A stretch of DNA of 47,835 nucleotides from Thermoplasmatota archaeon (GTDB taxonomy: Archaea > Thermoplasmatota > Thermoplasmata > Thermoplasmatales > Thermoplasmataceae), in assembly GCA_023484105.1 (NCBI GenBank), contig JAMDBD010000020.1:1-47835 (forward strand). The letters run 5' to 3'. How positions within the stretch are numbered: the first letter of the stretch is position 1; every line of letters starts with the position of its first letter. Shown one piece after another: positions 27,287-31,156 of this stretch. A program made the position numbers and the translations under genes. The notes beneath the pieces are model-generated. The model had not been told where the DNA came from. It saw only the letters and a program-made list of their open reading frames with translations, and ran no database searches.

Positions 27287-27813
27287 ATGTACTCCACAGT
27301 TGCCCTGTCACTTGAGACGCTGCTTCTGCCGGTTTCGTCATCTATTACTAAAGTGAACGGAATATTTCCCTCTTCGGCCTCGTGCAGCAGGGCTTTCACC
27401 CTGTTGAATTCCTCCTCGTCTTCGTATGGCATCATGTCGATGTACTCATCCAGTCTCCTGAGAATACCCTCGACGGTGGTCACATATCCTGAGGATTTCT
27501 CGCCGGGAGAGATCTCAGCGCCGAATTCCGGTATGTAGACAAATGCGGCCGGAGACCTGTACACCATTGTGTTGAGCAGTGATGAACTGTCTATTCTCAG
27601 GTTTATCTTTATGTGCCGACCCGGTTCGCTGCTGAACACATTGCTCTTTTTGTAAAGGCATGAGTGGCATGTGTATGTCTGTATCATGATATGCCCCTCA
27701 TGCGGTATTTCCATCTCATAATTCATCAGAAAAAGGAGGCTTCCGCAGGCAGGGCACTCAACATTGGTGGGTATCTCCTCCGGTACCGTGTATTCATTCT
27801 CCCTCATAGGCAT
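27280..27813 (-). CDS. ZPR1-type zinc-finger protein
   Basis: The 177-residue archaeal ZPR1 protein has a four-Cys zinc finger, C20-x2-C23 (VECPACGS) and C49-x2-C52 (YTCHSCLYKKSNVF), followed by the ZPR1 beta domain with RSPAAFVYIPEFGAEISPGEKSSGYVTTVEGILRRLDEYI. In eukaryotes ZPR1 is a chaperone for translation factor EF1A. Archaeal single-domain versions are conserved but unstudied. It is the last gene of the isoprenoid operon, overlapping the fni end by 20 bases. Confidence 0.9.
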   Translation of the reverse strand: MPMRENEYTVPEEIPTNVECPACGSLLFLMNYEMEIPHEGHIMIQTYTCHSCLYKKSNVFSSEPGRHIKINLRIDSSSLLNTMVYRSPAAFVYIPEFGAEISPGEKSSGYVTTVEGILRRLDEYIDMMPYEDEEEFNRVKALLHEAEEGNIPFTLVIDDETGRSSVSSDRATVEYIQ

Positions 27814-28849
27814 CCATCCAGCTTTTCAGGGGCTCTGTTATTATTTTTCTGGCACTTGCAAGCGCATCTATGTTTCTGCTTCTGGTGAGAAGCATTGCGA
27901 TCTTCAGGTCCCTGAGGATCCATGAAATCCTTGTGGATATCTCCTCCTCGGAATTGTCTGCACTCTGCAGGAGAACTCTGGCAAAGCCCCCGGCAACTGC
28001 CCCCATGGAGATTGCCCTTGCAAGATCAAGCCCGTTTCTCAATCCGCCGCTTCCAATAACGGGAAGGCCTACCTGGCAGTATTTGACAGAGGCAGGAGAA
28101 GGAATTCCCCAGTTCCAGAAGGTGCTGCCGCTGTTCATCTTTTCCATGTCTCCGGCCTTCTTCGCCCTGTAATACTCAATGGCCGAGAATGATGTCCCTC
28201 CAAGGCCTCCGACATCAAGCGCCTTTACCCCCGCATCCTTCAGATCCTCGGCAACTTCCCTTGAAAGGCCGTTTCCGGTCTCCTTAACAATAACAGTGTA
28301 GCTTGAGGCAATCTCGGATATTCTTTTCAGTATTCCCCTTGCGTTCCTGTCTCCTTCAGGCTGCACCATTTCCTGCAAAAAATTGAGGTGTATGTAAATC
28401 GCGTCGGCCTCTATCATGGTTACAGCTCTCTCAATCTGCGCATCGGTGAACGCTTTCTTCTCCTGATCAATCAGCTGTGGTGCTCCAATGTTGGCTATCT
28501 TCAGAGGGATTCTGAATTCGTTTATCACGGAAAAGGTGTCAGCAAGTTCAGGCTTCTCAATGGCGGCTCGCATGCTTCCCACCCCCATGGCAACGCCTGC
28601 CTTTTCCGCAGCAGAAGCAAGGTTTCTGTTTATGTTCTTTGCAAGCTGTGTGCCTCCGGTCATTGAGGAGATGATCAGCGGGCTCTTCAGCCTCTTTGAG
28701 AGGAAGTTTATTCCGGTATCAAGGCTGGAAAAATCGATTTCAGGAAGAGCATGATGGATCAGCCTGACATCGTCCCAGTAGTTGTGATCTGATGTTACTG
28801 CCTCATGCTCAGCGATCCTGATGTGCTCCTCCTTCCTCTGCTCGATCAT
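27794..28849 (-). CDS. fni: Type 2 isopentenyl-diphosphate delta-isomerase
   Basis: The 351-residue FMN- and NADPH-dependent enzyme interconverts IPP and DMAPP. Family features are RKEEHIRIAEHEAVTS at the N-terminus, PLIISSMTGGT, GVAMGVGSMRAAIE, VKETGNGLSREVAEDL, DVGGLGGTSFSAIE and PVIGSGGLRNGLDLARAISMGA for phosphate and FMN binding. It overlaps the upstream isopentenyl phosphate kinase gene by 4 bases (ATGA), so the operon encodes consecutive steps from isopentenyl phosphate to DMAPP for archaeal lipids. Confidence 0.95.
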   Translation of the reverse strand: MIEQRKEEHIRIAEHEAVTSDHNYWDDVRLIHHALPEIDFSSLDTGINFLSKRLKSPLIISSMTGGTQLAKNINRNLASAAEKAGVAMGVGSMRAAIEKPELADTFSVINEFRIPLKIANIGAPQLIDQEKKAFTDAQIERAVTMIEADAIYIHLNFLQEMVQPEGDRNARGILKRISEIASSYTVIVKETGNGLSREVAEDLKDAGVKALDVGGLGGTSFSAIEYYRAKKAGDMEKMNSGSTFWNWGIPSPASVKYCQVGLPVIGSGGLRNGLDLARAISMGAVAGGFARVLLQSADNSEEEISTRISWILRDLKIAMLLTRSRNIDALASARKIITEPLKSWMDAYEGE

Positions 28850-29586
28850 GATATCACCGTTCCAATAAAACCCGGCTTCCCTATCAAGGCAATCCTTTCG
28901 GGATGATTTCCGTTAAGCACACACACATGTCTGGAATATTTCCTTATCCTGACAAGCATATCAAGCTTCAGCCTCATCCCTCCCGTTGCATCTTCCCCAG
29001 TTGCCTTTATTCCCTCATCGTTTCCGACCTCATAAACGATTCTGGCATCATGGTTCTTTTTCGGATCCTCGGTGTATATTCCGTCAACGTCGGTTAGAAA
29101 GGCAACCATATCAGGCTTCAGATTCTGGCTGATATCAAGAACTATCCTGTCGCCGGAATAGATCTCTATCCTCCCTCCCGAAATATAGGTGTCCCCGAAA
29201 AGGAGTGGAGTGAAACCCTTACGGATGTATTCTCCTATTGGGGTGCAGTCAACTCTGCCGTTTCTGATCATGGACGATGTGGAAAATATGTAGGGTTTAA
29301 AGTGTGAACCTGAAAGAACTCTCCCCACCCTCGCGGCAAGATCAAGCATGTCAGAGTGAACAGCGGACGCAGCCTCAATCCTATCTGGAGTTATTGCACC
29401 CGGGATACCATGCCGCTTTGATAGTATGTGCCCGAAGGAACCACCACCGATGACAATAGCCATCCTGTCACCTGTCTTCCTTAAATTTGCGGCAATATCC
29501 TGGGTTTTCCTGAGCCTGAAACGTCTGTAAACGCTCTTATCGGTGATCACACTGCCACCAAGCTTTACCACAGAAATTCCATCCAT
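28846..29586 (-). CDS. Isopentenyl phosphate kinase
   Basis: The 246-residue amino-acid-kinase-fold enzyme phosphorylates isopentenyl phosphate to IPP, the late step of archaeal modified mevalonate pathways. It shows KLGGSVITDKS (ATP-binding Lys), IGGGSFGHILSK with the substrate-recognition His53, FLTDVDGIYTEDP and VLNGNHPERI, closely following the Thermoplasma acidophilum enzyme as remembered. Downstream fni uses its product. The upstream small membrane-protein gene ends 5 bases before this ATG, so all four genes to zpr1 probably form one transcript. Confidence 0.95.
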   Translation of the reverse strand: MDGISVVKLGGSVITDKSVYRRFRLRKTQDIAANLRKTGDRMAIVIGGGSFGHILSKRHGIPGAITPDRIEAASAVHSDMLDLAARVGRVLSGSHFKPYIFSTSSMIRNGRVDCTPIGEYIRKGFTPLLFGDTYISGGRIEIYSGDRIVLDISQNLKPDMVAFLTDVDGIYTEDPKKNHDARIVYEVGNDEGIKATGEDATGGMRLKLDMLVRIRKYSRHVCVLNGNHPERIALIGKPGFIGTVIS

Positions 29587-30051: not shown

Positions 30052-30246
30052 TCAACCTCCGGAGAAGACCTCAAGGAAGACCAGATCGTCGTCCTTTCCT
30101 GCTATCCTGTCCCATGTGGCAGGCTTTCCGTTCAGCACGGCAACATATCTCTCCTGCGTTAAACCATACTGCCTTGCTATCTCTCCAATCTCGATCTCCC
30201 TTTCAGATGCCAGATTTCTGGTCTCTCTCCCGATTATCCTTATCAT
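30052..30246 (-). CDS. Ubiquitin-like sulfur carrier/SAMP protein (MoaD/ThiS fold)
   Basis: The 64-residue beta-grasp protein reads MIRIIGRETRN, then EIEIGEIARQYGLTQERYVAVLNGKPAT and DDLVFLEVFSGG. The C-terminal Gly-Gly is the activation site of ThiS, MoaD and archaeal SAMP proteins, which carry sulfur as thiocarboxylate (thiamine, molybdopterin, tRNA 2-thiouridine) or modify proteins. ATG 30246 is chosen because residues further upstream in the same frame are the tRNA-Gln gene. The ATG lies 9 bases after the tRNA 3' end in the same direction, so the two RNAs are probably made together. Confidence 0.85.
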   Translation of the reverse strand: MIRIIGRETRNLASEREIEIGEIARQYGLTQERYVAVLNGKPATWDRIAGKDDDLVFLEVFSGG

Positions 30247-30255
30247 GATCTCACA

Positions 30256-30328
30256 CAGCCCCGGGCAGATTCGAACTGCCGTCGTCGGATCCAAAGTCCG
30301 AAATGCTTGGCCACTACACCACGGGGCT
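30256..30328 (-). tRNA. tRNA-Gln (anticodon TTG)
   Basis: The 73-base tRNA has acceptor arms AGCCCCG and CGGGGCT with discriminator G, D-arm region GTGTAGTGGCCAAGC, anticodon stem TCGGA/TCCGA around loop CTTTGGA (anticodon TTG), and T arm GGCAGTTCGAATCTGCC. No CCA and no intron. TATA-like cattataatcgg on the minus strand (about 30350-30361) lies about 22-33 bases upstream. A sulfur-carrier gene begins 9 bases downstream. Confidence 0.95.
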
Positions 30329-30403: not shown

Positions 30404-31156
30404 TCATAGAAATATCTTATCGCTTCCGGCCTCCTGCGTAGCAACCATAACATCTGGGCTGCTTATCCCGGCTGAAACCATGGCAGAAATGACTGTATTC
30501 CTGGCAATCTCAGGCCTGTTGTTCTCTTTGCTCAGATGCATCAGTATCACCCTGGCATCACCACTGTACACTGAAGCCACAAGGGACGCGCACTGATCGT
30601 TGGACAGATGCCCCTTCGGACCTGAAATCCTTCTCTTCAGATGCTCTGGATATCTGCCGTTCATCAGCATTTCCAGGTCATGGTTTGCCTCAATACCTAT
30701 TATTGAGGACCCTGACATTGCATCTATCAGCCCTTCTGAAACTGTACCGAGATCTGTGACCACTGAAATCTTCCTGCCTGATCTTTCTATGACAAAACCA
30801 ACAGGATCCACGGCATCATGAGAAACTCCGACGGATGAAACGCTGAAACTCCCGAACGCCATGTTTTCCTGCATTGCGTATCCTGAAACTCCACACGCCT
30901 CGAGGGTTTTTCTCCTGGCATAAATCTCACCGGAAATCTTCTTCCTGAAAAGCTTCACATTCCCGGCATGATCGCTGTGTTCATGCGAGATCATGAGTGC
31001 AATGGAATCAGGCTCCAAACCCTCATCATTCAGAAAAGCTGTGAACCTCTTCAGAGAAATGCCAAAGTCGATTACGAGCATGAACTCCCCATCTGTTATC
31101 ACGGAGCAGTTTCCAGAACTACCGCTGGCCAGCGATTTGAAGAATGTTCCAGGCAA
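30404..31156 (-). CDS. MBL-fold metallo-hydrolase (YycJ/WalJ-like)
   Basis: The 250-residue metallo-beta-lactamase-fold protein has FKSLASGSSGNCSVI at the N-terminus and the metal-binding SHEHSDHAGN with H58, H60, D62 and H63. Later ligands lie in GVSHDAVDPVGF, VVTDLGTVSE and ILMHLSKENNRPE. The SGSSGN plus SHEHxDH combination is typical of YycJ/WalJ-type proteins, reported in bacteria as double-strand exonucleases linked to mismatch repair. In archaea the role is untested. It follows a short gap after tRNA-Gln. Confidence 0.88.
   Translation of the reverse strand: MPGTFFKSLASGSSGNCSVITDGEFMLVIDFGISLKRFTAFLNDEGLEPDSIALMISHEHSDHAGNVKLFRKKISGEIYARRKTLEACGVSGYAMQENMAFGSFSVSSVGVSHDAVDPVGFVIERSGRKISVVTDLGTVSEGLIDAMSGSSIIGIEANHDLEMLMNGRYPEHLKRRISGPKGHLSNDQCASLVASVYSGDARVILMHLSKENNRPEIARNTVISAMVSAGISSPDVMVATQEAGSDKIFL

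Follow-up and report, generated by a model that had tools for sequence, protein, structure and literature searches.

What does it mean that a tRNA-Gln(UUG) gene stands a few nucleotides before the gene of a ubiquitin-like sulfur carrier, and are the two made as one RNA? The question is raised by a 47,835-nt stretch of DNA (assembly GCA_023484105.1, contig JAMDBD010000020.1), here called the window, from a Thermoplasmatota archaeon of the family Thermoplasmataceae, whose members are acidophiles. The tRNA gene lies on the minus strand at 30328-30256 (Rfam RF00005, 59.9 bits) and was also called by ARAGORN, with one base of padding at either end relative to Rfam. Both programs give the anticodon as TTG, which lies at 30294-30292, and the sequence has a discriminator G at 30256 and no encoded CCA. 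A 9-nt gap, TGTGAGATC (30255-30247, minus strand), with a Shine-Dalgarno-like GTGA at 30254-30251, 4 nt before the ATG, separates the tRNA from the gene identified by profile matches as a SAMP2/ThiS-type ubiquitin-like carrier (30246-30052, minus strand). This gene starts with ATG at 30246, stops at 30054-30052 and encodes 64 residues ending in FSGG. A first-pass annotation had given the coordinates, the shared direction, the 9-base gap and a 64-residue Gly-Gly protein, all of which hold by ARAGORN, Rfam and the sequence itself. It had also noticed a promoter before the tRNA, and a sequence match to a TATA-like box, ATTATAAT, was found at 30361-30354 (minus strand), 33-26 nt before the tRNA 5' end; this box is the presumed promoter of a tRNA-carrier dicistron. 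Just past the carrier stop codon a T-run at 30042-30038 (minus strand) is a possible archaeal terminator, and with the box before the tRNA and the T-run past the stop codon a transcript of about 300 nt between them is plausible. The upstream neighbour, a metallo-beta-lactamase-fold protein (30404-31156, minus strand; Pfam PF12706/PF00753), lies outside the pair. Elsewhere in the window, at 27794-29586 on the minus strand, two adjoining genes appear by eye to encode an isopentenyl phosphate kinase and a type 2 isopentenyl diphosphate isomerase.

The profile of 31 aligned relatives of the carrier matched the solved SAMP2 of Pyrococcus furiosus (PDB 5lda) at E 4e-8; PF1061 was also matched, and TtuB at E 2e-4. 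The Pfam family SAMP2 was matched by all 31 relatives at E values up to 0.1 (best 2.5e-17) and ThiS by 28 of them, and the window's sequence by itself scored 15 bits, below the Pfam SAMP2 cut-off of 27. F61, S62, G63 and G64 are invariant across the 31 relatives, the Gly-Gly being the very C-terminus with the stop codon directly after it, and by homology the fold is expected to be a beta-grasp. The genome encodes a single ThiF-type E1-like protein (ThiF family, contig C3, position 126284, 156.6 bits) and a single NcsA/TtuA-like thiolase (contig C30), whose best PDB match is the U34 thiolase 6scy (E 2e-45); neither reaches its NCBIfam equivalog cut-off (UbaA and NcsA, respectively). A second, weaker ATP_bind_3 match in the genome appears by eye to be a GMP-synthase-like protein. 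A further ThiS/MoaD gene was looked for and not found in the genome, which is 95% complete, unlike four other genomes (G020, G035, G054 and G057) with at least one second gene of that family each. The first-pass interpretation has support in these two genes, which encode an E1-like and an NcsA-like partner of a SAMP2 thiolation route. By homology, the protein is most likely a sulfur carrier for U34 thiolation acting with the single ThiF protein and the single NcsA-like thiolase. It resembles SAMP2 (Haloferax volcanii; Pyrococcus furiosus 5lda) and TtuB in the profile match, the C-terminal Gly-Gly and the E1-like and NcsA/TtuA-like partners; it differs from them in that a tRNA gene stands ahead of its own, in that the lone sequence lies under the Pfam SAMP2 cut-off and in that sulfur transfer or conjugation is here only putative.

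A SAMP2-type protein is present in 70 of the 77 genomes of the family. Comparison of synteny among Thermoplasmatales relatives, which the first-pass annotation had proposed as a check, found the pair kept: tRNA-Gln(UUG) lies on the same strand just upstream of the carrier gene in 65 of the 70 carrier-bearing genomes, although the genomes share ancestry, so that each is not a separate event. About 60 of the 65 paired genomes have a gap of 1-16 nt (58 by pattern, plus G034 with 14 nt by eye and G048 with 9-24 nt depending on the start codon), and the pair extends over 18 of 19 genera. One genome counted as paired, G062, has a tRNA partly reading N that ARAGORN missed. Five genomes have wide gaps of 61 (G010), 118 (G051), 166 (G039), 167 (G040) and 206 nt (G052), by which tight spacing is not indispensable. 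Only in genus 15 (five genomes) is the tRNA missing upstream of the carrier. A pattern scan of named genomes returned 54 stretches, of which 41 passed a strict rule for SAMP2 likeness and a few others were recognizable but cut or frame-extended; among the named members with the pair are Ferroplasma acidarmanus Fer1, Acidiplasma aeolicum, E-plasma and a Cuniculiplasma MAG, and the matches in Micrarchaeota and Aenigmatarchaeota had other genes or none downstream of the tRNA. Since it recurs in 65 of the 70 carrier-bearing genomes and is one of only two recurrent pairs in the survey described below, the pairing is beyond chance; it is old and kept in the family. In outgroup families of the order the protein is present without tRNA-Gln(UUG) upstream. 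One member of family f6 (G116, locus L137, contig C74) has a tRNA-Arg(CCG), apparently with an encoded CCA, 7 nt before a SAMP2-like gene, apparently an independent case.

The surroundings of the pair are variable. Upstream of the tRNA stands a metallo-beta-lactamase-fold protein in genera 1, 9, 11, 18 and 19, a protein of another family in genera 2 and 5 and, as judged by eye, a ferredoxin-like protein in genera 3, 4, 6 and 14, a molybdopterin-type oxidoreductase in genera 8, 10 and 17 and a methionine-aminopeptidase-like protein in genus 16. Downstream of the carrier, 16 genera have a convergent gene, by eye that of an archaeal CCA-adding enzyme, which is lost in genera 1, 13 and 14 with the tRNA-carrier junction intact; the CCA-adding-enzyme-like gene (by eye) is not at this place in the window. 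Because the junction persists while the upstream gene differs and the downstream gene is lost, the arrangement is conserved beyond general synteny, which is ruled out as the cause.

Promoter signals were scored by genus with a TATA matrix drawn from general knowledge of archaeal promoters, taking the best score in equal 30-nt segments. The mean was 4.7 before the tRNA, only moderately over the 3.2 of shuffles made from these segments, and -0.9 before the carrier ATG, the score before the tRNA being the higher of the two real positions in 15 of 16 genera. Most genera have a TATA-like box some 30 nt ahead of the tRNA, which genera 3 and 17 lack. The ferredoxin-like gene of genera 4 and 6 ends so near the tRNA that the promoter may precede that gene. 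Carrier orthologues in the tRNA-less families f2 and f5 mostly have TATA-like boxes of their own, and a TTATAA was seen by eye within the 61-nt gap of G010, a single case.

The spacer takes two main forms. In genera 2, 5, 13 and 14 (Ferroplasma, Acidiplasma and two others) the ATG follows 1-3 nt past the discriminator; in the remaining tight-gap genera, the window included, a leader of 7-16 nt is present, often with a Shine-Dalgarno-like motif. A match of at least 4 nt to such a motif occurs in 26 of the 38 different spacers of this length, compared with a mean of 13.6 and a maximum of 22 in 1000 shuffles, a count that is not independent as the spacers are related. Archaeal RNase Z cuts just past the discriminator in CCA-less precursors (PMC7479834), so that the mRNA would be leaderless in the genera with a 1-3 nt spacer. 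In Methanococcus maripaludis RNase Z makes about 30% of its cuts 5-6 nt beyond that point (PMC7479834), and cuts of that kind would alter the leader. The near-leaderless product of tRNA 3' processing envisaged in the first-pass annotation is what these spacings, 9 nt in the window and 1-3 nt in four genera, would be expected to yield. Folding of four precursors gave no clear block of the start codon: in Ferroplasma the AUG was more paired in the precursor (probability of the first base being unpaired 0.17 vs 0.72), not clearly so in the other three.

The arrangement is probably best explained, and we hold this with some confidence, by one transcript that carries tRNA-Gln(UUG) and the carrier mRNA and from which the mRNA is released by tRNA 3' processing. 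What is observed is the anatomy, the conservation and the missing TATA signal between the genes; from these we infer a shared transcript, its cleavage and the consequence for translation. A single promoter before the tRNA would give an RNA of about 300 nt holding the tRNA and the SAMP2-type mRNA; RNase P would trim the 5' end of the tRNA, and one RNase Z cut just past the discriminator would free the short mRNA together with the tRNA 3' end, to which CCA would be added. In the window the freed mRNA would have TGTGAGATC as its 9-nt leader, with the weak Shine-Dalgarno-like GTGA, and in four genera it would be leaderless (1-3 nt). As one cut would free both molecules, the output of the carrier would depend on how tRNA-Gln(UUG) is transcribed and matured at its 3' end.

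Two alternatives deny that the carrier mRNA comes from the tRNA transcript. The carrier might have a promoter of its own inside the tRNA gene, the adjacency being compact packing, and archaeal intragenic promoters do exist, with 644 internal starts in Thermococcus kodakarensis (PMC4247193). However, no good TATA-like signal was found at -45 to -15 of the carrier ATG in any genus (mean -0.9), a stretch taken up mainly by the GC-rich acceptor stem and T arm of the tRNA, and we regard such a promoter as very unlikely. There appears to be neither room nor a TATA signal for a promoter between the tRNA and the carrier gene, in agreement with the single promoter of the first-pass annotation. Alternatively, the protein might begin upstream, in a frame running through the tRNA gene, and in the window a frame of 95 aa is indeed open at 30339-30052. 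This frame is not conserved: with spacers of 1-16 nt the carrier falls in each of the three possible frames with respect to the tRNA, and in several relatives a stop codon immediately ahead of the ATG limits the open frame to 64-66 aa. A protein read through from before the tRNA is therefore ruled out for practical purposes.

Dicistrons headed by a tRNA recur in the order. Among the 43-44 tRNAs surveyed in each of three genomes from different genera (the window's genome G000, G020 and G054), only tRNA-Gln(UUG)-SAMP2 and tRNA-Lys(UUU)-rpoH recur; the survey left out the Lys pair of G054, which has a 12-nt gap by coordinates, and took the Lys row of G020 from the congener G021. A wide class of conserved tRNA-mRNA pairs is ruled out, as in these three genomes 7-9 tRNAs each have an open reading frame of at least 50 aa that starts within 45 nt and only these two pairs recur. 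The tRNA-Lys(UUU) gene, at contig C30:8303-8376 in the window's genome, stands 11-19 nt before rpoH in 30 of 30 family loci, genus 15 included, 15-26 nt before it in members of families f2, f3 and f6 and 130-137 nt in f10 (all loci together L155-L184 and L295-L323); from this wider occurrence it is probably the older of the two pairs. It shares the layout of the Gln(UUG)-SAMP2 pair, with a gap of 11-26 nt, and differs in its wider distribution, its longer gap and its product, RNA polymerase subunit H, which has no known role in thiolation. In several genera a tRNA-Gln(CUG) was seen about 16-38 nt before a DUF1940-type gene (PF09155 by a Pfam run on the G000 protein only; L143:2015-2578, and L191, L197, L199, L202, L204-L206, L211 and L364); DUF1940 likewise has no known role in thiolation. 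In genus 15 the tRNA-Gln(UUG) stands 11-15 nt before the gene of a membrane-like protein of 146-170 residues (L192-L196). This genus is probably Thermoplasma, since its carrier gene follows what reads as a PAC2-like gene, as in two Thermoplasma genomes (PMC2948915).

Why this tRNA should head this gene is a separate matter from the transcript itself. The two may stand together for convenience, small housekeeping genes riding strong constitutive tRNA promoters with no meaning in which protein follows which tRNA. To this explanation we give about an even chance: it is favoured by tRNA-Lys(UUU), which heads rpoH in every one of the 30 family loci (gap 11-19 nt) and in several other families (15-26 nt), by the tRNA-Gln(CUG) before the DUF1940-type gene in several genera and by the unrelated membrane-like protein gene behind tRNA-Gln(UUG) in genus 15. 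Against it, the three distant genera of the survey have no more than two such pairs in common, and the tRNAs of both, Lys(UUU) and Gln(UUG), are of the U34-thiolated type, which is suggestive, though noticed afterwards and with two pairs only. The first-pass annotation had instead proposed that substrate and sulfur donor could be made from one transcript. Selection would then have kept the layout for the proportion between the two, the carrier giving sulfur to U34 of the co-encoded tRNA. In Haloferax, thiolation of tRNA-Lys(UUU) depends on SAMP2, UbaA and NcsA, and Gln(UUG) and Glu(UUC) were proposed as further targets (PMC4048286); the window's genome has a single NcsA-like and a single ThiF-like gene, a second gene of the ThiS/MoaD family was not found in it, and the pair outlasts its rearranged flanks. 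Yet the other expected targets, Lys(UUU) and Glu(UUC), are not paired with the carrier, and the Sulfolobus tRNA-Gln(UUG) is listed among the tRNAs with Um34 or s2Um34 (PMC7668247). Taken alone, the layout and its conservation do not favour the substrate as the reason for the pairing, because the pair is split in genus 15 and missing from other families, where outgroups have the carrier without the tRNA, and because rpoH and DUF1940 share the layout. We consider it a possible reason, with the balance somewhat against it. A stronger form, in which tRNA 3' maturation is a translation switch, is more doubtful still: a start codon 1-3 nt from the tRNA body, as in some genera, would be unusable until RNase Z has cut, and the carrier would then thiolate U34 of the released tRNA, giving a self-proportioning pair.

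Co-transcription of a tRNA with an mRNA is already known in archaea. In T. kodakarensis a tRNA-Lys lies within the 5'-UTR of TK0306 (PMC4247193), likewise an archaeal tRNA apparently co-transcribed ahead of a protein gene; that tRNA is part of the 159-nt 5'-UTR of a gene for a DEAD-box helicase, whereas the present pair is separated by 9 nt, or by 1-3 nt in some genera, and is kept throughout the family. In Nanoarchaeum equitans a tRNA half precedes the valyl-tRNA synthetase gene, and RNase Z would free an sRNA from a tRNA-sRNA precursor (PMC3491384). For the latter, too, the proposal is that the RNase Z cut at the tRNA generates the 5' end of the RNA behind it, which is a C/D box sRNA and not an mRNA. 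The ThiS-PAC2 neighbourhood described in two Thermoplasma genomes (Makarova and Koonin, PMC2948915) apparently concerns the same orthologous carrier and fits genus 15, with the difference that the tRNA no longer lies upstream; that paper treats the protein neighbours of archaeal ubiquitin-like genes, and its text contains neither 'tRNA gene' nor 'Gln'. No report of a tRNA-Gln(UUG)-SAMP2 or a tRNA-Lys-rpoH pair was found in a literature search of partial coverage.

If the reading of a tRNA-headed dicistron is true, tRNA processing would conservedly make leaderless or near-leaderless archaeal mRNAs from at least two pairs, those of SAMP2 and of RNA polymerase subunit H. Such mRNAs, with a 5'-monophosphate and without a start site of their own, would be misread in maps of transcription starts. 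The pair would then allow, in cultured species (Ferroplasma acidarmanus, for example), a direct test of whether the supply of the carrier is matched to the supply of a tRNA that it possibly modifies.
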